Shown one piece after another: positions 1 to 13,508 of a DNA stretch of 34,601 nt. This DNA comes from Fimbriimonas sp. (lineage in GTDB: Bacteria > Armatimonadota > Fimbriimonadia > Fimbriimonadales > Fimbriimonadaceae), in contig JARLGV010000029.1 in NCBI GenBank assembly GCA_031292555.1, positions 1 through 34,601 on the forward strand, in the 5' to 3' direction. How positions within the stretch are numbered: the stretch's first letter is position 1; each line of letters begins with the position of its first letter. Both the position numbers and the translations under genes were made by a program. The notes below the pieces were generated by a model that saw nothing but the letters and a program-made list of their open reading frames with translations, was not told where the DNA came from and searched no databases.

Positions 1-113
1 CAGTGAAGTACGGCGTGAAGAACATCAAGCGAATTGGCTCGATCACATATACCGACCACCAACCCAACGACTTCTGGGCCGAACAAGGCTACGACTGGTT
101 CGCCGGCCTGTAG
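1..113 (+). CDS. Molybdopterin-dependent oxidoreductase, 3' end only (partial)
   Basis: Only the last 36 codons are in the window and the gene begins to the left. The visible C-terminus (VKYGVKNIKRIGSI, then NDFWAEQGYDWFAGL) resembles the end of the sulfite-oxidase/MsrP-type Mo-cofactor domain. In that family a 'GxPhRLxxPxxYGxKxxKxI' block is followed by an aromatic-rich tail. These enzymes oxidise or reduce sulfur- or nitrogen-containing substrates in the periplasm. A nearly identical copy of this tail lies at 9250-9362, with four base differences over the 113 bases. I infer that this left copy is the end of the intact gene and the right one a fragment, but the 5' part cannot be seen. Confidence 0.6.
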   Translation, partial: VKYGVKNIKRIGSITYTDHQPNDFWAEQGYDWFAGL

Positions 114-130
114 CTGACAAGACTCGCGGT

Positions 131-153
131 CGGCAGGACAGAAGGAACTGCCG
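131..153. other. Weak inverted repeat after the oxidoreductase stop
   Basis: CGGCAG at 131-136 pairs with CTGCCG at 148-153 across an 11-base loop, just downstream of the stop at 111-113. No clear T-run follows. In the second copy (near 9380-9405) the stem is less complete. It may be a weak terminator or chance. Confidence 0.2.
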
Positions 154-213
154 GGAGGCTTTATCGCTTTCTCGGCTCTTCGCGTTCTCGCTTCATCGCT
201 TGGCACGGGGCGC

Positions 214-265
214 CTATCGGAGGACCAGTTGCGTGGTCCAGGTCTCCCCGCCGCCCTCCGCGTGC
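214..265 (-). pseudogene. Remnant 3' end of a WD40/Ig-like protein gene
   Basis: On the minus strand the last codons before the TAG at 214-216 read AEGGGETWTTQLVLR. This aligns with the end of the large WD40 protein (TAVAGGVTRTVQLIVR, stop 9464-9466). A stop appears in frame about 20 codons upstream, and clear homology fades between 265 and 285. It is therefore a broken tail, not a gene. It keeps the same convergent position relative to the oxidoreductase end as the second copy does, which shows that the whole gene junction is duplicated. Confidence 0.6.
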
Positions 266-317
266 GGCAAGCGCTACGCAATCCACGCAAAGGTCGCACA
301 AATCATGCCGAAGGCGA

Positions 318-356
318 CGGAGACCAAGGTGCATGATCCAATGCGCTAGGTCTCCG
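318..356 (-). terminator. Possible terminator/hairpin at the end of the peptide operon
   Basis: An 8-base inverted repeat, CGGAGACC at 318-325 and GGTCTCCG at 349-356, spans the stop codon of the sulfotransferase gene. An inner GCAT/ATGC pair could extend the stem. There is no U-tract on the minus strand, so an intrinsic terminator is only a suggestion. Confidence 0.25.
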
Positions 357-2400
357 ATAGGCTAGCGAGTTCCCCAATCCAAGGCTCAAACCGCTGCCAG
401 CGCCCGATCGATGTTTGATACATAGGCTGCCTAACCTGCCATAGGCTCGGCGTAGTTACGCCGCGTTGGTTGTCTTCGGGCCGTAGGCAAGACGCCTTCC
501 ACGAAAGACCGCAATACTCAAGGATTGTACGAATCACCGGCTCTGGCGTCGTCACTAGATTCTCGTACTGAACCTCCAAGATTGAGCCCGACGGCTCACT
601 TTGTCGCCAGTGTTCCATATGCGACAGATATCTCTGGTAATTAAGCACAATGTGCGCCTTCTTGTGAGCCCAGCGAATACGAACCGGGTTTTGGGTTGCA
701 TAGATAGAGACACAGGTATCGATAGGATGTCGCCTTACATGAATGATACGTGCTTGTGGTAAAGCCGCGCGAATCAACCCAATGTACATGTAGTTGTTTG
801 GCATCTTATCAACCACGAACCGTTTGCCCTCGGAGAATGAACTGAGGCGGTTAATGTAACCTTCTGCGAGTTCCTTGACGCGGCTAAAGTCGACTCTGCC
901 CGTCTCCGGATCACACGCCCTGCGAAAGTTCTGGGGCCAGTATCGCTGCTCCCCGGCGCCCGAGACCTCGAGATGGCTTGAAAGGATCTGTTCCATCAAG
1001 GAGGTTCCCGAACGCATCATACCAACAACGAAGATTGGGGTCAGGCTATCCTCAAATGCAGGTTCGCGCTGGCAAGATATGGCTGAGAATTTTGAGCGGA
1101 TGAAATCGTAGTTTTCGCGGTGCTTCGCTGGGTCAAATGGAAGGTCCCCGAACTTGCTCGTGTACGCAGCCTCGTTCGCCAAGTCGTAGTGGCGAAAGGC
1201 CTCTTTGAAGTCGCCAAGGTCTTCTAGGCTCTTGCCAAGGGCATAGTGAAGCAACTCCAGCTCACTGGGATCGAGGGTCTGATCGGCAGCTAGATCCACC
1301 ATTGTCCCAAGAAGGTCCTGATCTTGGACGCTCATCCGCCGGCACCTCGATCTCACAAAGTAAGCGAGCCCTTGACGTGGTTCCATGTCCGCAGATTGCT
1401 TGCACCTCGTTTCGGCTGCTTCCATTTGGCCAAGTGCCTGGAGCACAGCACCATGAATAGCGACTGCACAACTATCGCTTCGATCAATTTCAGTTGCAGA
1501 CAAAGCTTCCAGCTCCGCTTCGTGCGTGCGACCGTCAAGGATTAGGGCCTGAGCCAACAACCTGCGTCCGACACTATTGTGCGCATCAAGAGAGATAGCT
1601 ATCTGAGCCTGTTCCGCGGCCTGGTCTGGTTTGGCGTCAAGCAAGTACGCGGAGGCCAGATACTCGCGGAAGCTAAGGTCTTTTGGCTTAAGCTCGACGG
1701 CTCGGACCAATGCGGCAATTGCGAGATGCAGTCTGCCACTACCCTGTAAGGCCAAACCCAGCGAAGCGTGAAAATCTGCATTATCGTTGTCTAGTTCAGC
1801 GGCCTTTTGGAGAACGGATACCGCACCGGTAAATAGGCGGGCCTCTAGGAGGCAGGTGCCGTATGTGTATTGCGCCAATCCATCACTTGGTAATTGCGCG
1901 GCGACCTTCGCTGCGGCATTCGCTGCATCGATCGCTTTTCCTTGTCTTCGAAGGGCGACGGAGAGCAGGCGGTACAACTCGGCTGAGTCAGGCTTCTGGC
2001 GAAGAACAATCTCAAGTTGCCTTGCAGCAGCGCTGACCGTGACGCGATCGAATCCGATTAGCAGATGCAGTAACTGCGCACGCACCGACCATGGTCGAGA
2101 CCTTCGTAGCCGTGCGCTCAGGCGCGTCGCCTCGTCAAGTCTGCCGATAACTCTAGCCCGATAAACTCGGCGAACCCTGTGCTGCCATTCGGATCCCATG
2201 AATGCCAATACCTGTGTGCTGGTGATTAATTCCCTAAGCATGCTTGCGGTGTACATCCGATACCGCTCAGCTTCCCGTTCACGATGTGAAGTTATGCCAC
2301 TCCATAAGAGAGACGCCAACGTTTGGCTCGTCCGCGACGAAGCCACCAAACCCCTCGAAACGTACCGCTCAATAGATCGGCGAGCATACGGAGAACGCAA
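346..2400 (-). CDS. TPR-repeat sulfotransferase (tyrosylprotein-sulfotransferase-like)
   Basis: A 684-residue protein. The N-terminal 60% (about residues 100-410) is tandem TPR helices (for example PDSAELYRLLSVALRRQGK and NADFHASLGLALQGSGR). The C-terminal 230 residues form a PAPS-dependent sulfotransferase domain. The 5'-phosphosulfate loop is FVVGMMRSGTSLMEQ (456-470), the TPST-like acidic residue lies in GAGEQRYW (481-488), and the 3'-phosphate site is HVRRHPIDTCVS (554-565). The family transfers sulfate to tyrosines or glycans, and TPRs typically grip a protein or peptide partner. It is the last gene of the peptide operon, 91 bases after the nine-cysteine peptide gene. The first codon of the open frame is TTG (2400) with a poor ribosome site. 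A GTG at 2346 behind GAGGGG is an equally good start. The substrate is unknown; the adjacent tyrosine-containing peptide is an inferred candidate. Confidence 0.85.
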   Translation of the reverse strand: MRSPYARRSIERYVSRGLVASSRTSQTLASLLWSGITSHREREAERYRMYTASMLRELITSTQVLAFMGSEWQHRVRRVYRARVIGRLDEATRLSARLRRSRPWSVRAQLLHLLIGFDRVTVSAAARQLEIVLRQKPDSAELYRLLSVALRRQGKAIDAANAAAKVAAQLPSDGLAQYTYGTCLLEARLFTGAVSVLQKAAELDNDNADFHASLGLALQGSGRLHLAIAALVRAVELKPKDLSFREYLASAYLLDAKPDQAAEQAQIAISLDAHNSVGRRLLAQALILDGRTHEAELEALSATEIDRSDSCAVAIHGAVLQALGQMEAAETRCKQSADMEPRQGLAYFVRSRCRRMSVQDQDLLGTMVDLAADQTLDPSELELLHYALGKSLEDLGDFKEAFRHYDLANEAAYTSKFGDLPFDPAKHRENYDFIRSKFSAISCQREPAFEDSLTPIFVVGMMRSGTSLMEQILSSHLEVSGAGEQRYWPQNFRRACDPETGRVDFSRVKELAEGYINRLSSFSEGKRFVVDKMPNNYMYIGLIRAALPQARIIHVRRHPIDTCVSIYATQNPVRIRWAHKKAHIVLNYQRYLSHMEHWRQSEPSGSILEVQYENLVTTPEPVIRTILEYCGLSWKASCLRPEDNQRGVTTPSLWQVRQPMYQTSIGRWQRFEPWIGELASLSET

Positions 2401-2491
2401 CGGATCCTACGAGGCATCCAAATACGCCTTTTATCCGTATGCTCGACAATAGCAAAGGCAACCCTATCGAAACGAGAGATTGCGCGGCCGG

Positions 2492-2866
2492 CTAGTTGCA
2501 GACCTCCGTGCTTGAGGGGAAGTAAGTTGGAGATAAGTTGCAGAGCGAGTTGTCCGCGTAGGTCGTGGTACAGGTGATGGTGTTTGTGTTTGTGCAGCCT
2601 GTGCCCAACGCCACACATCTTTTCTTGGTCGTCGACGTGCGAATGACGTATTGGCCGTTCTTAGGGACCGTGATGCACGTTGGTGTTCCGCAGACGTTGT
2701 TTGCGCTGCAGTGCTGGTAGAAGTCGCAAGCGGCTTGGCCAGCGATGTTACCGGCCTCGTCCTCAGCAAGGACTACTTTGGGAGCCGCAAATCCACTGGC
2801 TCCAACTACCAAGGCCGCCATGCCGATCGGCACAGCGGCCATTCCGACTATTGTCTTTTTGTTCAT
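2492..2866 (-). CDS. Secreted nine-cysteine small protein (candidate peptide precursor)
   Basis: A 124-residue protein that I do not recognise. A basic start (MNKK) leads into a hydrophobic segment (residues 5-28) that looks like a Sec signal or leader, followed by an acidic linker (LAEDEAG, 33-39). The rest is rich in Cys, Thr and Asn. Nine cysteines lie at 47, 53, 59, 64, 84, 91, 99, 109 and 123, and there are tyrosines at 50, 73, 103 and 115. The start is secure: GGAGGAGC sits just before the ATG at 2866, and the ATG overlaps the stop of the upstream VKOR-DsbA gene (ATGA). Such tight coupling to a disulfide oxidase, with a sulfotransferase gene downstream, suggests that this is a substrate of the operon's enzymes. 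That is inference. An odd Cys number allows four disulfides plus one free or intermolecular thiol. Confidence 0.8.
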   Translation of the reverse strand: MNKKTIVGMAAVPIGMAALVVGASGFAAPKVVLAEDEAGNIAGQAACDFYQHCSANNVCGTPTCITVPKNGQYVIRTSTTKKRCVALGTGCTNTNTITCTTTYADNSLCNLSPTYFPSSTEVCN

Positions 2867-3804
2867 TGCTCCTCCGATGTTGATCCCCGCGATGAAGCAT
2901 CGCGAAGGATATCTGACTGACTACTTGCCGCAAGCTTAGGCTGACGCCGGCCTCCGACGATGTGAAAAACGGCTGGTACACCTCGAATGCTTAGCGATTG
3001 CGCTAGCATTCCGTCGTCTGCTACTACTGCATCCGCCCATTCGGGAATCGTTCGTATCGCGTCCTTTACGCAGGAGGTCACTCCCGTTTCCTGGGCGAGT
3101 TTCAATAGCTCCGCATCGCTGAATTTCGAATGGCTCATCACACGTTCTGTAAAAAGCCGACCCTGCCGTGGTGAATAGGCGTCTACGCACTCACAAATGG
3201 CGGCGATTCGCTCGCTTTCTTCGGACGTCTCCGAGAGGAGACGCCACCGAATCGTGACTAGGCGTCTCGCAGGCTGGCTCAAGCCGGCCCAAAGATCGTG
3301 GCAGTGAGGACACAGCGGATCTGCGAAGAGAACATACGAAGTGCTTGTTGGGTCACCGGACCGCGCATGGAACTGGTAACTGCCCAGATCCACGCCGACT
3401 GCGCGAGCGGCGGCGAAACAGGCTAAGCAGCAATATGCGGCGCCGACCAGACACGTCGTCATTGCCCTTCTGAACCAGGAAGCCAAGAACAATCCTACAT
3501 AGCAAGTTTGTAACGCCACACAATAGGGGCACCATTCTCGCATGACTATGAGCGCTAGAACGGCTCCGACCACGACGGCAAACGAGAGGGCTGTTAAGGA
3601 CCTGAATGCCCACGGTCTGCCGGAGAAGTAAGCCACCGGCAATGCAATCAGATTGATCAGTGACAGAACCGCCGGTATGCCGTGGGACGACTCTGAAATA
3701 ACTGAGCAGCCAGCGGCGCACCCCATGTGCGTAAAGCTGCCTACAACCAGCCCAATGCTGAGAAGAAGCGCGACAAGCCAAAGTGCGGCTAAAACGTACT
3801 TCAT
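2863..3804 (-). CDS. VKOR-DsbA fusion (disulfide oxidase), second copy
   Basis: A 313-residue membrane protein. Residues 1-135 form a vitamin-K-epoxide-reductase domain with several transmembrane helices, a loop Cys pair (C29, C33) and the quinone-site pair in WCPYC (C92, C95). After the last membrane helix, residues 140-313 form a thioredoxin-fold domain facing the periplasm. It has a CPHC active site (165-168, the same four residues as E. coli DsbA) and a cis-Pro loop (RGVPAVF). In this family the thioredoxin domain oxidises exported proteins and the VKOR domain passes the electrons to quinone. The gene starts five bases after the DUF1573-like gene and overlaps the nine-Cys peptide gene by four bases. 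It is only distantly similar to the other VKOR fusion in the operon, so it is not a recent duplicate. Confidence 0.88.
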   Translation of the reverse strand: MKYVLAALWLVALLLSIGLVVGSFTHMGCAAGCSVISESSHGIPAVLSLINLIALPVAYFSGRPWAFRSLTALSFAVVVGAVLALIVMREWCPYCVALQTCYVGLFLASWFRRAMTTCLVGAAYCCLACFAAARAVGVDLGSYQFHARSGDPTSTSYVLFADPLCPHCHDLWAGLSQPARRLVTIRWRLLSETSEESERIAAICECVDAYSPRQGRLFTERVMSHSKFSDAELLKLAQETGVTSCVKDAIRTIPEWADAVVADDGMLAQSLSIRGVPAVFHIVGGRRQPKLAASSQSDILRDASSRGSTSEEQ

Positions 3805-3809
3805 GGCAC

Positions 3810-4715
3810 TTAGAAGAGGACGTCGGCCTCCGTTGGCTTGCTATTGGGCTCGGCGACACTTATCCGAACCAGACCGGCATTTAGTCCTTGTGGAGATGAA
3901 AGCGTGAGTTCCTCGCCGGATCGGCTTATTGAGACGCTTGGGTTGCTACAAGAGACGATGACTTTGGAAAGATCGTGTGCGTTGATGATCTTAAGCGTTG
4001 CAGTCAGTCGACCTCCAGTCTCGGTCGCAACCGTCGAAGCCGGGTACGTTCGCAGCGTACTCTGTGTTACTTCAGCAAAGACAGGTAGGGAGAAGGGCAC
4101 CATTTTACCGTTCTCGTCGGTCACCTGAAGTTTCACCTCACCAAGCGGCCCCTCAGGGCCGACCTTGTCAAGCCGAACCATGACCGATTGGACATTTCCT
4201 TCGGCCGTAACTCCAGACGGCGCGGATACGACCTTCACGGGGGAAGTCATGCTCGAAAAGGGCACTTTTATCTCGGTTGTCTCGCCTCGTTTTGAGCGAC
4301 ACTCCAGCATATCGAGGTACGGCGACGGGAGGACGTTGTAATCGATCTCGTAGTCCTCGTCGCCCGAAATGCCGCCAACCGTCTTCTTTAGCACGAACCG
4401 CTGTGCGCAGGGTCCCCGCTGCCCGACGGCGAAGGTTCTCAGCGTCATCGTCTCAACGGCTCCCGGGGGAAGAATGTTATTTCCGGCGAGGTGGACACTC
4501 ACCCCACAAGCCTGATCAAAGCCGGACAGCTTCAGAAGCTTTCGGGAGTCATTCCGGACCGGTACATTCCACACGATGTCTTGGTAAGGATGAACATCAC
4601 CGGCATTGTACTTATGCAAGTGACTTGTCGTGCCTCCCGATGCTTTGCCTGCGAAAAGCATGGCGGCCGAGGCCAAGAGGATGATCCCAAAGGCGGTCCA
4701 CAAGAGCCACTTCAT
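3810..4715 (-). CDS. DUF1573-like membrane-anchored Ig-fold protein
   Basis: A 301-residue protein. An N-terminal hydrophobic stretch (residues 3-22) is a signal or anchor. Residues about 45-125 resemble DUF1573/ASH-type Ig domains: 'VPVRNDSRKLLKLSGF', then a lone ACGV and 'ILPPGAVETMTLRTF'. Later residues look like further beta-sandwich modules. Cysteines occur at CGV, in GPCAQR, in MLECRS and in VSCSNPS. Its biochemical role is unknown. DUF1573 domains are thought to be extracytoplasmic binding modules. The ATG (4713-4715) directly follows the C39 gene's TAG, and that gene's 3' end supplies GGAGG seven bases upstream, so translation is almost certainly coupled. Confidence 0.7.
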   Translation of the reverse strand: MKWLLWTAFGIILLASAAMLFAGKASGGTTSHLHKYNAGDVHPYQDIVWNVPVRNDSRKLLKLSGFDQACGVSVHLAGNNILPPGAVETMTLRTFAVGQRGPCAQRFVLKKTVGGISGDEDYEIDYNVLPSPYLDMLECRSKRGETTEIKVPFSSMTSPVKVVSAPSGVTAEGNVQSVMVRLDKVGPEGPLGEVKLQVTDENGKMVPFSLPVFAEVTQSTLRTYPASTVATETGGRLTATLKIINAHDLSKVIVSCSNPSVSISRSGEELTLSSPQGLNAGLVRISVAEPNSKPTEADVLF

Positions 4716-6011
4716 CTATTCGCCTCCTATCAGGGCGTAGCCAGTCCACTTCTGCGCTAAATCAGTTGCAGCGCCGGTGGTCACAACGAACGGAGGGTCG
4801 ACAACAGTCGCGACTCGACCTTTTAGCGAAACCAGAACCACGAAGTGGCTGTCCCGCACCGAAAGTATTGCCGGCGTCGAAATATCCCGCAGCCTGGTCG
4901 CCTTCACCGCACGCATCCGGTGCCCGTATTTCGCCGCTACTGTTTCGATTTGCTTCATCGTCACTCCGTATTCAATGGTTGGGAAGCTTTTGCGAACGGT
5001 CGAGTCATTCACGTTTGCGCCGGCCAGGCGTAAGTAGTAGAACAGCGAATCCGGCCCGCAGGAGGTCGAAAAGAAGTGACCTTTCGGGTCGAGGGCCTTG
5101 GACGATTTGGCTGACGCCAAGACCTTTGCCGCAGTGTCTTCGTTGATGGGACTTTCCTTGCCAACGTACGTCTCAACCCCGAGCGCTTCGTCTACAAATG
5201 GAGTGCCCTGCGCCAGCGCAAATCGCTGTGGACGACGGGTTAAGGGCGTGAGCGAAATCAGGGTATAGCGGCCCGATCTATCCCCTAGGTTGCTTACGTC
5301 AACGTAGCCTTTCAGCCGCTGCGCATCGAGGTGGCTTAGATCAATCTGAACCCACGCGTGATACTTGCCGTTCTTGTTGTCATGGGTCTTGATAAGCAGT
5401 GGGGCGTGATGTGCCTCGTCCCAAGTGAGACTGACATACACAGGGATGCCATCTTGGTTCAGAGCAAAATCGGATGCGACCAGCGTAGTGCCGCTACGCC
5501 GTACGGTCAGGTGTGGGTCACGGGCCGCCGCTTCAGCTAGACTGTAACCGCCGATTGCGACACCCATAGGCAGCAGGCTCGTATCTTCTATCGAAGCCTT
5601 GTCTCCGAGGATCCTTGTCCTCCACTCCGACCCCCTTGATCGGAGCCACTCGTCGCCGTTGCCGTTAGCCTCGACCCGCCTCCAAGACTCACCATCTTGG
5701 TACACCACTTTAGTCTCGATCCCAGTTGGAGTGAGTTGATCTACCCGAGAAAGGTCCGGCGCCAGGGTCACTCTATAGCGACCGCCTTGAGATCCGAGAA
5801 CCATCTGGATGTTCTCGAACCTCGAGGGCCAGATCCTCATCTCGGCAAGCAAACGTTCCCGCAAGGCCGATGAAGCCTGCCCCGTGCCGCTCTGGCGACC
5901 TGCCGCACCGGCGACCGCTACCGCCAAGCTTAGAATAAGCCAGAAGCGCGCCAGCCTAAGGGTTGGACGAGATATTGCGCGCGAACCAATCAATCTCAGG
6001 AATTCAGTCAT
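4716..6011 (-). CDS. Secreted or anchored C39-like cysteine peptidase
   Basis: A 431-residue protein. A basic N-terminus and hydrophobic segment (about 21-38) form a signal or membrane anchor. Residues 45-270 are beta-rich and unrecognised. The C-terminal 120 residues match a peptidase C39 domain, with nucleophile Cys318 (STSCGPDSL), His389 (DSHFVVL) and Asp405 (VVDPPFV). The Gln that usually sits six residues before the Cys and forms the oxyanion hole is His312 here, so activity is likely but not certain. C39 domains normally cut leader peptides inside ABC exporters. This one has no transporter domain and would act outside the cytoplasm. The gene overlaps the glycosyltransferase gene by four bases (ATGA) and touches the DUF1573-like gene. 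Confidence 0.8.
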   Translation of the reverse strand: MTEFLRLIGSRAISRPTLRLARFWLILSLAVAVAGAAGRQSGTGQASSALRERLLAEMRIWPSRFENIQMVLGSQGGRYRVTLAPDLSRVDQLTPTGIETKVVYQDGESWRRVEANGNGDEWLRSRGSEWRTRILGDKASIEDTSLLPMGVAIGGYSLAEAAARDPHLTVRRSGTTLVASDFALNQDGIPVYVSLTWDEAHHAPLLIKTHDNKNGKYHAWVQIDLSHLDAQRLKGYVDVSNLGDRSGRYTLISLTPLTRRPQRFALAQGTPFVDEALGVETYVGKESPINEDTAAKVLASAKSSKALDPKGHFFSTSCGPDSLFYYLRLAGANVNDSTVRKSFPTIEYGVTMKQIETVAAKYGHRMRAVKATRLRDISTPAILSVRDSHFVVLVSLKGRVATVVDPPFVVTTGAATDLAQKWTGYALIGGE

Positions 6012-7294
6012 ACCGTTGCTTCCTCTCGTTTCCGCTCCGTACTTGCCCCGAATCGTGCCAAGAGACGTTCTCGTATTGCCTGGATCGGGATTGTTCTGTC
6101 GCCCTCAGGACAACGAAATACTTCGATCGAGTCGTACCACGGGCTGCGATTGCCGTCTTTACCCCAGCGCCAATCTCCGTATCGGGGCGTAATGAGCCAA
6201 CACTCCTTGCCGATAGCGCCTGCCAGGTGTGCGATACAGGTATCGACACTAACGACCAAGTCCACTCTTTCGAGTATCGCGGCAGTTACGGCAAGATCCG
6301 TTCCTCGCAGCCGCGGACATTCAAATGGGGCCTCTCCCGACACTTGAATCAGGACAAATGGCGCTGCGCCTTCGAACCGCCGAGCTTCCTCAATTGTTAA
6401 GGAGCGGTCTTCATCTTCCGAGTAGTCCGGATTGCCCTGCCAGCAAAATGCAACCCTCGCCCCGTCCAACTCTAAATCAAGGGCGGGCGGCCTAAGATAG
6501 GGAGATCCTTCGACTTCCGTGACACCGAGAACATGCGGAAGACTTAGCAGGGATATGTAAGCATCGAATGGCACGGGAACAGATCGATCCGAAGTTGGAG
6601 CCCAGATTTTGTCGGCCATGTTCTCGAAAACGCCGAGCAACTGTGGCGACACCTCCAACAAAACTGTTCCGCCGGCGCGTTTGGCAGCTTCAGAAATGTA
6701 GCGAGCGAACTGAATCTGATCGCCAAGCCCTTGTTCGCCATGGATTAGGAGTGAACCGACCCTTTCGCCTCTCCACATTCGTCCGGGCGCAGATCGGAGA
6801 GAGCGGCGGCTCGCAAGGTAGCCGTACTCATAGTCTTCAAAGCCCTGCTTGAAATTGAAAAGCGTTAAGTTGGCAAAAGCCCGCATCCACCGCTCGCGTA
6901 TGGAGTCCGGAGCCCGCCAGAGAACTTCATCCAAGGCTGCCTTGGCCTCCTCAATTCTTCCTGCCTTCATCAGTCCCTGAGAAAGAACATTTTGGGCATC
7001 AAGATCGTACGGGTCGAGTGCTAGCGCGCGGCGGGCGTGCAAGAGACTTTCTTCGTACCGCCGAACGGCAAGGAGGGCATTGGCCATCGCACCGTGGTTC
7101 TCCGAAGAATACGGATCATGCATTACGAGTGCAGTGGCGAGTTGAAGGGCTTCGTCCTTTTTCCCGGTTTGGATCGCGCTAACAACGTCACGAAATGTGG
7201 CGTCCCGTGCCGGCTCTGCAACTGGCTCCACGAGGATCGGGGCCTCGCCTCCGGCATCTTCACAGCCGTTGGTGTCGCGGAAGCTACCCTTCAT
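6008..7294 (-). CDS. TPR-repeat glycosyltransferase (GT-B / GT9-like)
   Basis: A 428-residue cytosolic protein. TPR helices (about residues 33-165, for example NHGAMANALLAVRRYEES) precede a GT-B glycosyltransferase region. That region has the conserved HGEQGLGDQIQFARY (185-199), VAFCWQGNPDYSEDEDRS (281-298) and the nucleotide-sugar-binding SVDTCIAHLAGA (349-360) with a downstream DWRW...SPWY motif. This matches the widespread 'TPR-containing glycosyltransferase family' proteins, in which TPRs present a protein acceptor. No signal peptide is visible. The start at 7294 follows GGGAG and overlaps the end of the first VKOR-DsbA gene by 11 bases. The acceptor is unknown; the Ser/Thr-rich small peptides of the same operon are an inferred candidate. 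Transfer to a polysaccharide is the main alternative. Confidence 0.85.
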   Translation of the reverse strand: MKGSFRDTNGCEDAGGEAPILVEPVAEPARDATFRDVVSAIQTGKKDEALQLATALVMHDPYSSENHGAMANALLAVRRYEESLLHARRALALDPYDLDAQNVLSQGLMKAGRIEEAKAALDEVLWRAPDSIRERWMRAFANLTLFNFKQGFEDYEYGYLASRRSLRSAPGRMWRGERVGSLLIHGEQGLGDQIQFARYISEAAKRAGGTVLLEVSPQLLGVFENMADKIWAPTSDRSVPVPFDAYISLLSLPHVLGVTEVEGSPYLRPPALDLELDGARVAFCWQGNPDYSEDEDRSLTIEEARRFEGAAPFVLIQVSGEAPFECPRLRGTDLAVTAAILERVDLVVSVDTCIAHLAGAIGKECWLITPRYGDWRWGKDGNRSPWYDSIEVFRCPEGDRTIPIQAIRERLLARFGASTERKREEATV

Positions 7295-8387
7295 CGAGTT
7301 GCACTCCCAGCAGACGCTGTAGATCTGCGACTGAGATAACCGTCGGGCTATGCGGCCCGGAGAGCAACAATAGAGTCGGCGTCCGGTTCACGCCGAGTTG
7401 GTGGGCGAGAGATAAGTCACGTCTCACGATAGCCTCCGCAGAGGCTTCCGCCGCAGGCGTCAGCTCTTCAGTCCGTAGGTCCCGAGCAAGGTTGTCGATA
7501 CCTTCGAGACCGCTGTCGCCTAAGTCGCAACCCGCCGTCAAGAACTCAAGCCCTCGCCCAGCAACCGTAGCTTTCGCCAATGCTAAGGACGCCTCAAAGG
7601 CTCCTGCATGGGACGGCATGGGGTACATCCGCACCACCAACCGAAACGCGCCGCTTTTCGCTGATCGCACGAGAAATGGCAGTACGCCACGGCATGCTGC
7701 GCACTCCAAATCCGTGAATGCGACGACTACTTTGTCGCTCGATTTAGCGCCAACCGTCAGACTGTCAGCAGGCGCAAGGTCCGTTAACGTAAGCCTGGCG
7801 AGGACTTCAGCCTTCAGGCCATGCACTACTGAACTGCTGCGCAGTCCTACGGCGCCTACCGCTATCGACGTACCAAGCAGGCACGCCATCACACTGAGAG
7901 GCCAGCGACGCATCTTCCCAATCTCTGGCACGGCCCAAGTACGACCGTCCGTAAGTAGAAAAATCAGGGCCAACGCGATGGACACCACGTTCGACGAAAT
8001 GCACCAGACACAGTGCGCATGCAATCGAATGGCAGCAAGTATCGTCAACACGCTTGATGCCGCCGCAACCCCCACGCAGAGCCACGTAATGGGAGCAATC
8101 CCGAATACCTTTCGCTTAATGATCCAAGCGACAGACGCGGCGCATACACTGAGGTAAAAGCCAAAGCCACAGAAGGCCACGGGAATGCCCATTGGGGCCG
8201 CAAGCTTGCTGGCAGCAACAAGCCCGCAATCATCCGATGCGCCGCAGTAAAGCGATGCACCGTAGACGTGGGCAACCGAAAGCATCGCCGTTAAGAACAG
8301 CCCCAGGCAACTACACAAGAGGACCAACCACACTACCACTGGCCCGCCTCCGCCGAAGCGGGAAACTAGCTGACTCTTCGCTACCAT
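7284..8387 (-). CDS. VKOR-DsbA fusion (disulfide oxidase), first copy
   Basis: A 367-residue integral membrane protein. The VKOR domain (about residues 15-150) has the loop pair C48/C54 (YCGASDDC) and the CVWC redox motif (126-129) at the top of a helix. A further membrane span (about 162-182) leads to a periplasmic DsbA-like thioredoxin domain with CAAC at 229-232 (FTDLECAAC) and cis-Pro in NRTPTLLLL. The domain pair makes a self-contained disulfide-forming enzyme recycled by quinone. The CAAC centre differs from the CPHC centre of the second fusion, so the two may differ in redox potential or substrate. The gene lies 39 bases downstream of the 43-residue peptide gene. Its own ribosome site is weak, which suggests expression as part of the operon. 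Confidence 0.88.
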   Translation of the reverse strand: MVAKSQLVSRFGGGGPVVVWLVLLCSCLGLFLTAMLSVAHVYGASLYCGASDDCGLVAASKLAAPMGIPVAFCGFGFYLSVCAASVAWIIKRKVFGIAPITWLCVGVAAASSVLTILAAIRLHAHCVWCISSNVVSIALALIFLLTDGRTWAVPEIGKMRRWPLSVMACLLGTSIAVGAVGLRSSSVVHGLKAEVLARLTLTDLAPADSLTVGAKSSDKVVVAFTDLECAACRGVLPFLVRSAKSGAFRLVVRMYPMPSHAGAFEASLALAKATVAGRGLEFLTAGCDLGDSGLEGIDNLARDLRTEELTPAAEASAEAIVRRDLSLAHQLGVNRTPTLLLLSGPHSPTVISVADLQRLLGVQLDEG

Positions 8388-8400
8388 TGGTCTTCTGGCT

Positions 8401-8423
8401 GGTCAAGTAGTACCGGTCAAGTA
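8401..8423. repeat. Short direct repeat between peptide gene and VKOR gene
   Basis: GGTCAAGTA occurs at 8401-8409 and again at 8415-8423, in the 39-base gap after the small peptide gene. It could affect transcript stability or be chance. No function is assigned. Confidence 0.3.
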
Positions 8424-8426
8424 CCG

Positions 8427-8558
8427 CTAGCCTACGGCCGTTGTGGCCGTACAGCTAGTGACAGTGTTAGGATTCACAGCCTGTGCTCGACCGGCAAGTA
8501 GAGCTCCGGCACCCAACGATAGTAGCAAGGTCGCAATCAGGACTCGAAGTTTTTGCAT
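8427..8558 (-). CDS. 43-residue secreted Thr-rich, single-Cys peptide precursor
   Basis: A very short gene at the head of the operon, unlike any family I know. The ATG (8556-8558) is preceded by AGGAGAATTGGAT, a good ribosome site. Translation gives a textbook Sec signal: basic start MQKLR, a hydrophobic core to residue 22, and a polar AGRAQA end with a predicted signal-peptidase site after Ala27. The predicted mature peptide is only 16 residues, VNPNTVTSCTATTAVG, with six Ser/Thr and one Cys (C36). It is the first gene after the best promoter in the region. Two disulfide oxidases, a glycosyltransferase, a C39-like peptidase and a sulfotransferase follow, so it is a strong candidate substrate. 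A chance ORF is possible, but signal, ribosome site and position together argue against it. Confidence 0.7.
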   Translation of the reverse strand: MQKLRVLIATLLLSLGAGALLAGRAQAVNPNTVTSCTATTAVG

Positions 8559-8608: not shown

Positions 8609-8650
8609 ATCGTACCATAGGAAGTGCGGCAGTGCCAACAAGTTTTTTTT
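8609..8650 (-). promoter_or_regulatory. Probable promoter of the peptide operon with A-tract
   Basis: Read on the minus strand, TTGGCA (8633-8638, 5/6 to the -35 consensus) is followed after 18 bases by TACGAT (8609-8614, 4/6 to -10). Eight A residues (8643-8650) sit just upstream of the -35, like an UP element. Transcription would start about 45 bases before the 43-residue peptide's ATG. Confidence 0.5.
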
Positions 8651-9149
8651 GTCCTCCTCAGGCTGCTTGGAAGACTCAGTTTATTGGTGCAGAGCGTTGG
8701 CTCCTCTTGGTTCCCAAAGTCGCCATAACCAAGGAGCAAAAGACTGTGATGCAAGCCCTAGGATATGTTCCACAGCCCTCTGCTCGACGGATTTCCGGCC
8801 GACGCCATCGTCAGCATGAAGTCAGAACCGGAAGCCGTGCTCTACACGAGCGACGCCAACCGGAGGAGGCAACTGAACGGCTGCGCACCAACCGAACTTG
8901 GGAAAGCGATGTTCGAGCTGCGGCAGGGCGGGAAGGACCGCGGCCAGATATTCCAACACTACCGGGCGGTTAACCGGCCGACGGTGCGGATCAACTTCTC
9001 GTTCACGAGGTGTTGCTGGACCGAGCGGACGCTCAGCGCTGCCGACGAACCTGAGGGCGAAACCAAGTTCGCCGGGCTGCCGACGTCGATGCGTCAGGCC
9101 ATCGAGCGCGAGATGGTCTCGCTCCAGCACGTGACCGCGAGTTCGAGGG
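8651..9149. other. About 500 bases without a recognisable gene
   Basis: This lies between the operon promoter and the second oxidoreductase fragment. An open frame at 8765-9193 on the plus strand (142 codons, containing TSMRQAIEREMVSLQ) has no family I recognise and runs out of frame into the oxidoreductase fragment. Open frames exist on both strands, as expected at this GC. It may be decayed coding sequence brought in with, or left by, the rearrangement that duplicated the flanking junction. Confidence 0.35.
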
Positions 9150-9362
9150 ATGGCATGCAAGCGGCTCCGCCCCCAGACGCTCTTGTGCTATGACGTGAAC
9201 GGCGAACCGTTTGCGATTGAGCACGGCGCCCCCATTCGCCTCGTCATCCCAGTGAAGTACGGCGTGAAGAACATCGAGCGAATTGGCTCGATTACCTATA
9301 CCGACCACCAACCCAACGACTTCTGGGCCGAACAAGGCTACGACTGGTTCGCCGGCCTATAG
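9150..9362 (+). pseudogene. Molybdopterin oxidoreductase 3' fragment (duplicate)
   Basis: The 70 codons include LRPQTLLCYDVNGEPF and IEHGAPIRLVIPVKYGVK, which are characteristic of the sulfite-oxidase/MsrP-type Mo-cofactor domain (family pattern HPQTLLAYEMNGEPLPxxHGAPxRL). Nothing of the N-terminal half of the enzyme, with its cofactor cysteine, is found upstream in any frame. The gene is therefore a truncated duplicate of the one ending at position 113. The last 113 bases match that copy except at four positions. The non-coding sequence just after the stop is visibly more diverged. Confidence 0.65.
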
Positions 9363-9463
9363 CTGAACGGGACTCTCGGTCGACAGGACAGAAGGAGCTG
9401 CCCGTAGGCTCTTTCGATTCCTCGACTTGTTGCCTTCTCACTTCAGCGCTTGGCGCGAAGCAC

Positions 9464-12463
9464 CTATCGAACGATCAGTTGCACCGTCCTGGTCACCCCG
9501 CCGGCCACCGCGGTAAGAGTTGCATTGACAGTTCCCGAGACCGGTTGCGTCGTAATCGAGATGGTCGCCGAGGAACTGCCGGGCGGGATTGTGACGGTCG
9601 ACGTAACGACCACCGCAGGTCGATTGCTATTTAGCCTAACCACCACTCCATTGGGACCGGCTGGCCCATTGAGCGTGACGGTCGCTGTCGAAGCGCCGCC
9701 GCCTGTGACCGTGGAGGGATTCACGGTGATCGACATCAATGCTGCCGGCAAAACGGTTACGGTCACGCTACGAGATGTCTTGCCGCTTGAGGCAGTCATC
9801 GTCACCTTTTGCTTCGTATCGACGGCTGCTGTCCGAATGACGACGGTTGCCGTGTTGTGACCGGACAACACCAGTGCGCCTCCCGGTACGACAACACCAG
9901 GCTGACTGGAGTTGAGGAGGACGTAATCGCCAAGCATTCCGGCCGGGCTGGAGATGCGAACCGTTCCCGAAAGCGGACTTCCACCGGTCGTCGACGACGG
10001 TTGCACTCCAAATGCCTGCAGGTCAGGCGCAAACACGGTCAGGTTCGTTGACAAGGAATAGGGCCCACTCGATGCCGTGATCGGAATCGTCACATTGGCG
10101 CCCGTCCAGCCGCTGCTCACCGTGAATGTGGCGGACCGCAACCCGGCCGGGACGGTGACAGTGGTGGAAACGGTTATGTCGGTTCCTGCCTGCAACCCAA
10201 TCGATACGCCGCCCTTGGGCGCCGGATGGGATAGGGTCACCGTGCCCTTTGTCGTTCCAATTTCGCGAATCGCAGATGGGCTCAGGCTCAGGCTTTGTAT
10301 CGACGCCGACGTTGGCGATTGGATCGTGCTGACACCCAATCCTCCGGCTGCGATCCCGTACGCGATGGCGGCGCCGTCCGGAGAAAGCGCGAATTCCCCC
10401 GCGAATCCCACATCGAAATAGCCAAGTGGTTTCGACTTAATCGCGTCGAACAGAACCAGCACGGGAGAACCGGCAGTCGCCGTCGCAAAGAGCGTCTTGC
10501 CGTCCGGCGCATAGCCGACGTCCAAGACGTTCGTTGTCTCACTGGGCATAGGAAGCGTCGTGATCAGATTACGGGTCGGAACGTTCCATAGCTCGACGAT
10601 TCCCACTTGCGGATACCCGAGCGTGAAGACATATCCGCCGGCTGCCAGAGTCTTACCATCAGGCGAGAAAGAGATGCCTTGGACCCCGCTCTCACTTGTC
10701 TTCAATGTTGTTTTGAGTTCGCCGGTCGAAACGTTCCAAAGCTCCAGCAAGCCGTTATAGGGTGCGTTAGCCGATGCGACGTACAAGCTTCCGCTGTCCG
10801 CCAGAGTCGTACCATCCGGGGAGAAGGAAAGCCCCGTAAATCCGAATGTAGCGGATGAGTGGAGAGTCTCCCGAAGACTCCCGGTTCCAAGGTCCCAGAC
10901 TTCAATCAGGGCGTTACCGTTGGCGTCCAGGCCGCCGTCAGCGATGAGCTTCCCGTCAGGCGAGAATGCGACCCGCCCGTTGTTTTCCACGTCGGTAACC
11001 AGGGAGACGATCAATGACCGGGCTCCAACACTCCAGACTTCGAGCACTCCGGAGAATGTCGCCGTGCTGAGGCTGTGGTATGTTCCCGCGATCGCAAGGC
11101 TCTTTCCATCGGGTGAGAAGGCGTTTGAGGATCGAGAGGTCGCATGGGTAGGCATCGTGAACCGCAGTAAGCCGGTGGCGGCGTCCCAGAGGTTAAACGC
11201 CTGTTCTGAACCGGCAGTGTAGTCGAGTACTCCGCCGGCGACCAGTTTGCCGTCGGGCGAAAATACCGGTGCGCCGATTCCGGTGGAAGGCCCTTGGTTG
11301 GTTTGGCCGGTGATCGTCGTCGTGCTGGAATTCGATGCCAGGTCCAAAGCCGTAATGAACCCTGCGTCGGGCTCGTATGCGCCTCCTTGACCAGTGCCAA
11401 CCCAAGAGTAGTCGACCCCGCCGCTTACCAGCTTGCTGCCATCGGGCGAGAATGCAACGCCATCAAGAGCCCACCCGTCGTCGTTTTGGGGTGCGCCGGG
11501 AATGTAGTTTGGAAGCTCCCATATCTCCTTGCGCCCCTTGCCGATGTAGGTGTTCTGGAAGGGCGTGTAGTCGGCGCCAACATCCGCCAGCGTCTTGCCG
11601 TCTGGGGAGATGGCTACCGTGTTGATCACGCTACCAATGCCTGACGCGAGTGCCTTGACGAGAACTCCTGTAGTCCCGTCGACTATCTGAAGCAACGGCC
11701 CGGTTTTCCCTAGTCCTCCAAGGGCGATCGTCTTACCGTCCGGCGCCAGCGCAAGCGACGCAACATAGTTGGAGTTGGCCGGAACTACCTTCTTCTGAAG
11801 GACGCCGGAGGACATGTTCCACCATTCCAGAGTTCCATTCGTTCCGTCGCCCCCGCCCGCGATTAGGAGTTTTCCGTCACCCGTGAAGGCAACCGAATTC
11901 ACAGACACGGCTGTGGTTCCCAGCGTCATCAGGCGCTTCGAAGAAGCGATTTGCCACACTTCCAACACGCCAGCGCTCTTGAGCGTGATCTTGCTGAACG
12001 TCGAACCGCCGATGGCAAGGGCGGTTCCGTCGGGAGTGAATGCGACAGTGCCGACGGACGTGCCGTCAGCAGCAAAGGTCTGGACCAATGCTCCGGTGGT
12101 GACATTCCACACCTCCAAGACGGCGGAGGTGGATGAATTGCCACCGACCGCGAGCCACTTGCCATCCGGAGAAAAGGCCACCGAACCGATGCCCACCGCG
12201 GAAGTCGCAAACCCTCGGTAAGGCAATCCGGTCGAGGCCGAATACACGCACACTCCGCCTGCGCCTCCTACCGCCAAGAGCGAGCCATCCTTGGAAAACG
12301 CAACCGACTCAACGGTGAAGACCGGTTCGAACGCCCATTTCACAGGAAGTGGAGACTGGGCGAAAGCGATCTGCAGGAGACCAAACAGGAACATACAGGC
12401 GACGGTCACGACACGGGCTCCTGAGATTGAGCTAAAAGTGTTTGGATTCTTCAAATGGAACAT
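9464..12463 (-). CDS. Secreted WD40 double-propeller protein with Ig-like repeats
   Basis: A protein of about 1,000 residues. A signal peptide (core VVTVACMFLFGLLQIAFAQ) precedes 14 WD40-type blades, each marked by an 'F-SPDGK-LA-GG' motif and usually followed by a 'WN-TG' end. Fourteen blades would make two seven-bladed propellers. The last 300 residues hold three Ig-like repeats with alternating Thr/Val/Ser strands (for example NPSTVTGGGASTATVTL). It is probably an extracellular binding or scaffold protein; its ligand is unknown. The open frame begins at an ATG at 12499, but the ATG at 12463 gives a more normal signal-peptide length and neither has a strong ribosome site. Its 3' end is duplicated as a remnant at 214-265. 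Confidence 0.8.
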   Translation of the reverse strand: MFHLKNPNTFSSISGARVVTVACMFLFGLLQIAFAQSPLPVKWAFEPVFTVESVAFSKDGSLLAVGGAGGVCVYSASTGLPYRGFATSAVGIGSVAFSPDGKWLAVGGNSSTSAVLEVWNVTTGALVQTFAADGTSVGTVAFTPDGTALAIGGSTFSKITLKSAGVLEVWQIASSKRLMTLGTTAVSVNSVAFTGDGKLLIAGGGDGTNGTLEWWNMSSGVLQKKVVPANSNYVASLALAPDGKTIALGGLGKTGPLLQIVDGTTGVLVKALASGIGSVINTVAISPDGKTLADVGADYTPFQNTYIGKGRKEIWELPNYIPGAPQNDDGWALDGVAFSPDGSKLVSGGVDYSWVGTGQGGAYEPDAGFITALDLASNSSTTTITGQTNQGPSTGIGAPVFSPDGKLVAGGVLDYTAGSEQAFNLWDAATGLLRFTMPTHATSRSSNAFSPDGKSLAIAGTYHSLSTATFSGVLEVWSVGARSLIVSLVTDVENNGRVAFSPDGKLIADGGLDANGNALIEVWDLGTGSLRETLHSSATFGFTGLSFSPDGTTLADSGSLYVASANAPYNGLLELWNVSTGELKTTLKTSESGVQGISFSPDGKTLAAGGYVFTLGYPQVGIVELWNVPTRNLITTLPMPSETTNVLDVGYAPDGKTLFATATAGSPVLVLFDAIKSKPLGYFDVGFAGEFALSPDGAAIAYGIAAGGLGVSTIQSPTSASIQSLSLSPSAIREIGTTKGTVTLSHPAPKGGVSIGLQAGTDITVSTTVTVPAGLRSATFTVSSGWTGANVTIPITASSGPYSLSTNLTVFAPDLQAFGVQPSSTTGGSPLSGTVRISSPAGMLGDYVLLNSSQPGVVVPGGALVLSGHNTATVVIRTAAVDTKQKVTMTASSGKTSRSVTVTVLPAALMSITVNPSTVTGGGASTATVTLNGPAGPNGVVVRLNSNRPAVVVTSTVTIPPGSSSATISITTQPVSGTVNATLTAVAGGVTRTVQLIVR

Positions 12464-12497
12464 TCGGTGATTTCTCAGACGGGATTTCCAGCTTAAC

Positions 12498-13508
12498 ATG
12501 TTCGCCCGTCAGAATCCCGATTTCGATCCCTCGACCATTCTATGCGTTCGGCCAAACGACGAAGTCGATCTCGACGGCTTGGTTGCCGGACGTCCGGAGG
12601 CATTTCTCCGCCACCGGGCGCTCTCTTTCGAGAGCGCCTTCGAATCCAACTCCGCTGCAATCGTCAAGCGGATTGCCGTCGATCAAGTTCGACCAGCGAT
12701 AGGCCGCGCCACCGGCGGCGCGGAAAGTATCGTCAGCGTCCCTGGCCAAGTACGCCAACCATGGGAAGAAGGCGACGTCCCTCATGGCGTGCTGCATCGG
12801 CACGCCTACCGGTCGGAGATCGTCGGTGAAACGCGACGATTCTTGGTCTACACTCCGCCCGGCTACTAATCCTCTCGGGGCGGCTACCCGGTTCTCTATC
12901 TGCTACACGGAGTGACGGAGACGTGCGAATCATGGGTCCGTGCCGGCAGGGCCGATACGATCCTCGATAATCTGATCATCCAAGGACTCGCGAAGAGAAT
13001 GCTTGTGGTTATGCCCGAGGGTTACGGTTTCCCCGACGTCGCCGACCGGATGGCCGACCAATTCGATCTCGCCAAGCAGCGGTCGATCATGGACTCAATG
13101 GGGCAGATCCTCATCAATGAAATCGTCCCCCAAGTCGAGCGCTCGTATCGAGTGATCCGAAGCCTGAAGGCTCGGGCCATCGCCGGATGCTCGATGGGCG
13201 GCGCCCAATCCCTCTACTTCGGGCTCCATCACCCGGAAATCTTCGGAACGGTTGCGTCCTTCAGCGGAGCCTTCATCATGTATAGCGGCGGCACCGCCAA
13301 GTGGTTTCCCGAGGTCCTGCACATCCCGAATCAGAAACTACTGCTCGCGTGCGGCACGGAGGATTTCCTTCTCGGAAGTAACCGAGTCACAACCAAGTGG
13401 CTGGAGACCCATGGCGCCAAGCCGGAAGTCAGAGAGACGCCCGGCGGTCACACCTGGCAAGTTTGGCGTCGAGAACTGGCGCATCTTGCTCCGAGCCTGT
13501 TTCGTTAG
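12498..13508 (+). pseudogene. Esterase (alpha/beta hydrolase, esterase D family) split by a stop codon
   Basis: One continuous frame encodes an enterochelin/feruloyl-esterase-like enzyme, but a TAA at 12867-12869 interrupts it between 'TRRFLVYTPPGY' and '[14 protein letters not shown]', two halves of one conserved block. After the stop the domain is complete: LLHG oxyanion loop, nucleophile in GCSMGGAQS, acid in [10 protein letters not shown] and His in [12 protein letters not shown]. Upstream, VSVPGQVRQPWEEGDVPHG is also typical of the family, but the earlier residues (12498-12700) are not, so the N-terminal domain may be degraded as well. A single base change in a Glu, Gln or Lys codon would explain the stop. 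Restart at GTG 12912 would lack the oxyanion loop. Sequencing error is the alternative. Confidence 0.75.

Follow-up and report, generated by a model that had tools for sequence, protein, structure and literature searches.

The window considered here corresponds to contig G000:C84 (34,601 bases) in a Fimbriimonas genome of 6.46 Mb, and its minus strand carries an operon (2492-8387) that probably serves the maturation of a secreted Cys-rich protein. The six genes lie head to tail and, read from 8387 to 2492, encode a VKOR-DsbA fusion (VKOR-DsbA#1, 7284..8387; Pfam VKOR 4e-13, Thioredoxin_4 6e-6), a TPR protein with a GT9/GT-B-like glycosyltransferase part (TPR-GT, 6008..7294; Pfam TPR_2 7e-9, Glyco_transf_9 4e-4, the latter below the cut-off), a stand-alone C39 peptidase of 431 amino acids (4716..6011; Pfam E=1.3e-11), a DUF1573-like (HYDIN/Ig-like) protein with an N-terminal membrane segment (3810..4715), a second VKOR-DsbA fusion annotated as membrane thiol oxidase (VKOR-DsbA#2, 2863..3804; Pfam DSBA E=1e-4) and a Sec-type Cys-rich precursor of 124 amino acids (2492..2866). 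All junctions are overlapping or close to zero: the frames of VKOR-DsbA#1 and TPR-GT share 11 nt and those of TPR-GT and C39 share 4 nt, the C39 and DUF1573-like genes abut (0 nt), and a 5 nt gap separates the latter from VKOR-DsbA#2, whose frame overlaps the start of the Cys-protein by 4 nt. This is the single, tightly packed minus-strand operon that a sequence-only reading had proposed. Its assignments of the two VKOR-DsbA oxidases, the TPR-GT and the C39 peptidase were borne out by Pfam matches (sub-threshold in the case of Glyco_transf_9), and that of the DUF1573-like protein by hhalign. It was also right in expecting Sec-type signals in place of an ATP-binding cassette (ABC) exporter, as no ABC exporter gene was found in the operon by Pfam and family profile searches.

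C39 domains normally cleave in the cytoplasm, fused to ABC exporters. The C39 protein of the window consists of an N-terminal signal or anchor, a middle region of ~270 residues and a C39 domain at residues 313-431, in which the catalytic Cys318 and the conserved His and Asp were recognized, so that it combines the fold and the three catalytic residues of double-glycine peptidases. In the model of the whole protein (mean predicted local distance difference test score, pLDDT, 47) only the C39 domain is resolved with confidence, and among solved structures it comes closest to the double-glycine protease 6mpz, which was solved with its leader peptide (Z=17.3, rmsd, i.e., root-mean-square deviation, 2.2 over 119 residues). 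Across 72 C39 domains, the catalytic Cys and His are kept in 99% and the Asp in 83%. A genome-wide search identified this protein as the single C39 of the window genome and, as it is devoid of ABC domains, the genome therefore has no C39-type ABC exporter. N-terminal hydrophobic segments are present in the window C39 as well as in 16/16 C39-DUF1573 and 4/4 LolA-C39 fusions from related genomes (see below), and the peptidase is accordingly predicted, from sequence, to act outside the membrane, either secreted or anchored. No sequence support was found for the idea that the window C39 is LolA-like in its N-terminal part (hhalign probability 3.5), and the confidence of the fold model is too low to add to this. 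The FapD model NF058616 gave no match for the window C39 and matched two relatives far below its cut-off, while the model of the PA2778 C39-TPR family (NF033920) matched neither the window C39 nor any of 10 relatives.

Both partner families of the peptidase could be assigned. In the VKOR-DsbA proteins, a VKOR membrane domain in which the Cys pair and CxxC are present is joined to a thioredoxin domain that has a further CxxC, and these thiol-oxidase motifs are conserved across the alignment of VKOR-DsbA proteins from the core loci described below. The DUF1573-like protein of the window has no Pfam match to DUF1573, but profile comparison with hhalign assigned it to this family with a probability of 96.9% (E=2e-10), and its homolog in genome G037 matches Pfam DUF1573 below the cut-off (E=0.0043). 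In a C39-DUF1573 fusion of another relative (L077:5114-6532), the DUF1573 part matches the NCBIfam model NF041425, OS_HP2 (seleno)protein, also below the cut-off (E=1.6e-16).

The Cys-rich protein starts with a signal peptide, followed by EDEAGNIAGQ^AACDF, where ^ marks the putative cleavage site, and nine Cys residues lie after that site. Two small secreted Cys peptides had originally been postulated for this locus, and the nine-Cys protein is the one that stands. The other is an open reading frame (ORF) of 43 amino acids at 8427..8558 on the minus strand, the first ORF of the presumed transcript, with a signal-like N-terminus. It was rejected as an established second peptide, since it contains just one Cys and nothing comparable occurs in the sister loci L017/L018; it probably represents a truncated precursor, or else yields no product, leaving its role doubtful. 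None of the Cys-rich proteins tested, from the window or from relatives, matched a named family above the cut-off in the Pfam and NCBIfam profiles.

When the C39 and DUF1573-like proteins of the window were searched against 150 relatives, the same core in the same order (C39, DUF1573-like, VKOR-DsbA, Cys-protein) was found in two genomes of the same family: G037 (locus L017; CP054189.1, a Chthonomonadaceae (Armatimonadota) metagenome-assembled genome) and G005 (locus L018). The core genes touch or overlap, the one exception being G005, where 197 nt separate the interrupted C39 frame from the next gene. A neighbourhood check in Armatimonadota, looking for homologous loci without a small peptide gene, instead found the small Cys-protein in 3/3 core loci (homologs at L017:10367-10762 and L018:11496-11906). 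In the small proteins of the two sister genomes the signal peptide is followed by ELDLVVGG or EAGKVKGG, which is the form of a double-glycine leader, and the window sequence EDEAGNIAGQ^AACDF aligns with EAGKVKGG^ and ELDLVVGG^. Pilin-like genes with a prepilin-type N-terminus directly follow the Cys-protein in both sister loci (L017:10711-11484, L018:11913-12623) and are not found in the window. Among the additional matches of the DUF1573-like search (G216, G226, G234) only G234 was informative, as in this genome a LolA-like gene stands directly between the gene of a Cys-rich protein and that of a C39-DUF1573 fusion. A wider scan of 84,980 species genomes, performed with poorly conserved patterns, returned G037 alone, and tblastn against plasmids mainly returned ordinary C39 ABC exporters, together with one Bacteroides DUF1573 gene and scattered unannotated C39s.

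PF03412 was detected above the cut-off in 115/291 Armatimonadota genomes, mostly in short frames without room for ABC domains. Sixty C39 neighbourhoods were fetched and local profiles were built, yielding 16 C39-DUF1573 fusions and four LolA-C39 fusions. In 14/16 stand-alone C39-DUF1573 loci, and likewise in 3/3 core loci, a small Cys-rich protein is encoded on the same strand, with a Sec-type hydrophobic N-terminus followed by a double-glycine motif, bringing the motif-bearing Cys-protein to 17/19 DUF1573-linked loci. The leader motif after the signal peptide reads L[ST]xx[EDQ][ML]xx[VIL]xG[GAST]; all 22 relatives examined have motif scores of 5-7 out of 7, in most cases with p<0.05 in within-sequence shuffles, and sub-threshold NCBIfam matches to the double-glycine leader models TIGR04149 and TIGR03949 fall on this motif. 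Small ORFs passing the filter were biased to the strand of the C39 gene (19/797, compared to 2/1182 on the opposite strand), and the order Cys-protein, LolA-like, C39-DUF1573 is highly regular, being repeated in at least 10 loci. Leaders are clearly better conserved than cores in the paralog pairs L117 (56/66 versus 9/20 aligned residues) and L093 (78% versus 42%), and the same tendency is seen in L133 (48% versus 27%), while the relation is reversed in L121/L123 (56% versus 68%); this contrast is suggestive of diversifying cores. At L130:6004-8563 (genome G126), three C39 frames follow one another on the same strand.

Taken together, we consider it likely, with a probability of roughly 70%, that the operon makes and matures a secreted Cys-rich protein through Sec export, disulfide formation and extracytoplasmic double-glycine cleavage by the C39 peptidase. 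The precursor would cross the inner membrane by the Sec route and lose its signal peptide, after which the VKOR-DsbA oxidases of the same operon, judging from their family, would form its disulfides. The extracytoplasmic stand-alone C39 would then remove a short double-glycine-type propeptide that separates the signal peptide from the Cys-rich core, as the motif and the genetic linkage suggest, and the DUF1573-like protein, or a LolA-like protein in other lineages, would probably act as a scaffold or carrier. The presence of a C39 peptidase is explained because a double-glycine-type propeptide follows the Sec signal in relatives, a feature that the sequence-only reading had missed. That reading had inferred a secreted, disulfide-bonded and possibly glycosylated or sulfated peptide; a maturation operon for a secreted disulfide-bonded peptide agrees with the Cys-protein found in 3/3 core and 14/16 related loci, but sulfation by the neighbouring sulfotransferase could not be upheld (see below). 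For the mature protein, divergent cores under conserved leaders allow a guess at a bacteriocin-like or cell-surface function.

Several points weigh against this interpretation. The motif of the window Cys-protein has GQ at P2-P1; taken by itself, its score of 4/7 does not exceed chance (shuffle p=0.55), and its recognition depends on aligning the protein with its sister proteins, to which identity is only 18-27%. GQ is nevertheless less odd than it seems, because P2 is Gly while P1 varies by substrate class. In addition, export was predicted from N-terminal hydrophobicity rather than by a trained signal-peptide predictor, and the core was found in just 3/291 Armatimonadota genomes. In G005, an in-frame TAA (L018:9388-9390) lies between the catalytic Cys and His of the C39, while the rest of the cassette is intact, so this copy is interrupted or mis-sequenced.

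A second group of C39 proteins, fused to TPR, is encoded directly upstream of proteins of roughly 850-1500 amino acids, and the two giant proteins tested both match DUF6531, one of them also RHS_repeat. A motif like L[ST]xxE[ML]xxLxG[RKAT] was found 60-120 residues into 20/24 large genes downstream of stand-alone C39, and in 13/24 it exceeds shuffles at p<0.01; both counts refer to genes next to C39. Giant Rhs/YD-repeat-type proteins with an L[ST]xxE[ML]xxLxG[RK]-like motif were observed at L021, L100, L101, L110, L132 and about 15 other loci. The giant Rhs-like proteins thus apparently represent a second substrate class for extracytoplasmic C39. More broadly, and with somewhat less confidence than for the operon itself, we favour a phylum-wide two-step export in Armatimonadota, in which double-glycine leaders placed after Sec signals would be cut outside the membrane by stand-alone C39 peptidases. 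It would comprise at least two substrate classes: small Cys-rich proteins, partnered by DUF1573/LolA-like proteins or VKOR-DsbA and with mostly GG, GA or GT at P2-P1, and giant Rhs/YD-repeat proteins, partnered by TPR-C39 and with mostly GR or GK. The window would then represent a divergent member, equipped with dedicated oxidases and, as an addition, a glycosyltransferase.

This added enzyme may have a role of its own, namely to glycosylate the precursor in the cytoplasm before Sec export, as an optional tailoring step that a lineage added to the core. Because the TPR-GT frame overlaps those of VKOR-DsbA#1 and C39, with which it is probably translated, such a lineage-specific step is a real though minority possibility; in layout, the protein is similar to OGT, a TPR protein-glycosyltransferase, although the model is of low confidence, and an unrelated glycosyltransferase is encoded upstream of the C39 in G005. 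On the other hand, the gene is specific to the window, its catalytic family is below the Pfam cut-off and its structure model has a mean pLDDT of 57. Its only close homologs among relatives, in G133 (38%) and G098 (31%), are both outside a C39 context, and the TPR-GT9-like homolog of G098 (L136, contig C94) shares a short contig with genes that are terminase-like and may be of phage origin.

It is rather unlikely that the C39 peptidase targets surface or Rhs-like proteins elsewhere, the Cys-protein being a structural or pilus-associated component. The pairing of C39 proteins with giant Rhs-like proteins in related genomes, the pilin-like genes after the Cys-protein in G037 and G005 and the weakness of the window motif would all fit this alternative, but the frame overlap between VKOR-DsbA#2 and the Cys-protein and the recurrence of the motif in the DUF1573-linked loci argue for the Cys-protein as the substrate.

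Less likely still is an operon for a ribosomally synthesized and post-translationally modified peptide akin to glycocins or RaxX, in which the TPR-GT would glycosylate and a TPR-sulfotransferase would sulfate the peptide. The sulfotransferase gene (346..2400, minus strand; Pfam Sulfotransfer_3 4e-39 plus TPR) had been counted as part of the operon, but is set apart from it by at least 91 nt. A comparison with solved structures matched its domain to tyrosylprotein sulfotransferases (E about 1e-4), and the TPR-GT is embedded in the operon with overlapping frames, both of which would suit a modified peptide. However, neither enzyme adjoins the core in L017/L018, and both are devoid of export signals, whereas the cleavage would be extracytoplasmic. 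The window genome has 39 Sulfotransfer_3 matches and four sister species have 14-27, most of them within frames of about 550-690 amino acids, and the TPR-sulfotransferases are expanded in genome and genus, where they are dispersed and at some places in tandem. With a chance of about 1% for a Sulfotransfer_3 gene as immediate neighbour, the co-location is weak but not worthless evidence. As one of dozens of dispersed paralogs absent from the sister loci, the enzyme was rejected as a member of the system and is probably a neighbour, which removes the basis of the proposed analogy with RaxX. Glycocin S-glycosyltransferases belong to GT2. A SunS-type (GT2) enzyme conserved beside the precursor was not found here, as the window enzyme is of TPR plus GT9/GT-B-like layout and is absent from both sister cores, with its nearest homologs in unrelated neighbourhoods; the analogy with glycocins was abandoned as well. 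Finally, it is highly improbable that the small ORFs are untranslated and the operon has a general role in envelope redox or the cell wall: VKOR occurs in nearly all relatives (60/61 genomes), as this would predict, but the Cys-rich ORF is kept in all three core loci with a conserved layout and the motif is enriched on the coding strand only.

The system shares the C39 fold, the catalytic residues and, in the substrates of relatives, a double-glycine-type leader with the peptidase-containing ABC transporters (PCAT/AMS: ComA, PCAT1, LahT), but differs from them in the absence of ABC and transmembrane exporter domains, in the predicted position of C39 outside the membrane, in the leader following a Sec signal and in being the only C39 of its genome. 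Compared to glycocins such as sublancin and glycocin F, which likewise combine a glycosyltransferase, thiol oxidases and C39 activity beside a Cys peptide, the window has no ABC exporter, a Sec signal and a TPR enzyme of another type. As for RaxX/RaxST, the similarity of the sulfotransferase domain to tyrosylprotein sulfotransferases is shared, while the gene lies outside the conserved core and no RaxB-type exporter accompanies it. The closest precedent is FapD of the Pseudomonas Fap amyloid system, also a stand-alone, Sec-exported C39 peptidase, which acts in the periplasm and is needed for Fap secretion (PMC5557850). It supports an extracytoplasmic C39, and its authors described the periplasmic C39 class as yet to be characterised and the target of FapD as unclear (PMC5557850). 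The operon differs by having no Fap genes and, unlike the Fap proteins, which have no canonical C39 sites, the substrates of relatives carry canonical motifs. The open-access literature, with incomplete coverage, yielded nothing relevant on C39 with DUF1573, NVEALA or Armatimonadota bacteriocins; the parts are each known, and the combination of a Sec signal, a double-glycine propeptide and a free C39 with Cys-rich cores was not found there. Both C39 peptidases and double-glycine leaders are regarded as signatures of export by ABC transporters. If correct, the proposed mechanism would uncouple the cleavage of leaders from ABC transport, account for the numerous C39 genes that stand alone and bring to light families of secreted Cys-rich proteins likely missed by genome mining keyed to ABC exporters, and the poorly characterised periplasmic C39 class would gain relatives with readable substrates, whose specificity is directly testable.

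Regarding the flanks of the operon, scans of its region for intrinsic terminators and promoters remained at chance level, and the candidate sigma-70-like promoter upstream (8609..8638, minus strand) has 9/12 matches in a region where the site count is not above chance. Anti-phage defence models gave nothing convincing. The operon is bracketed by two partial copies of a molybdopterin-oxidoreductase-like gene, each comprising its 3' end (1-262 and 9250-9512), and region 8640-9366 looks like a decayed copy. An apparently fuller copy is present on another contig (G000:C64:67-413), the end of which matches window positions 1-328 at 97%. WD40-repeat-like secreted proteins, encoded at 9464-12499 of the window and at L137:3377-7198, end in repeats of the PSTVTGG/PSQVTGG type, and both are located near repeated oxidoreductase ends.

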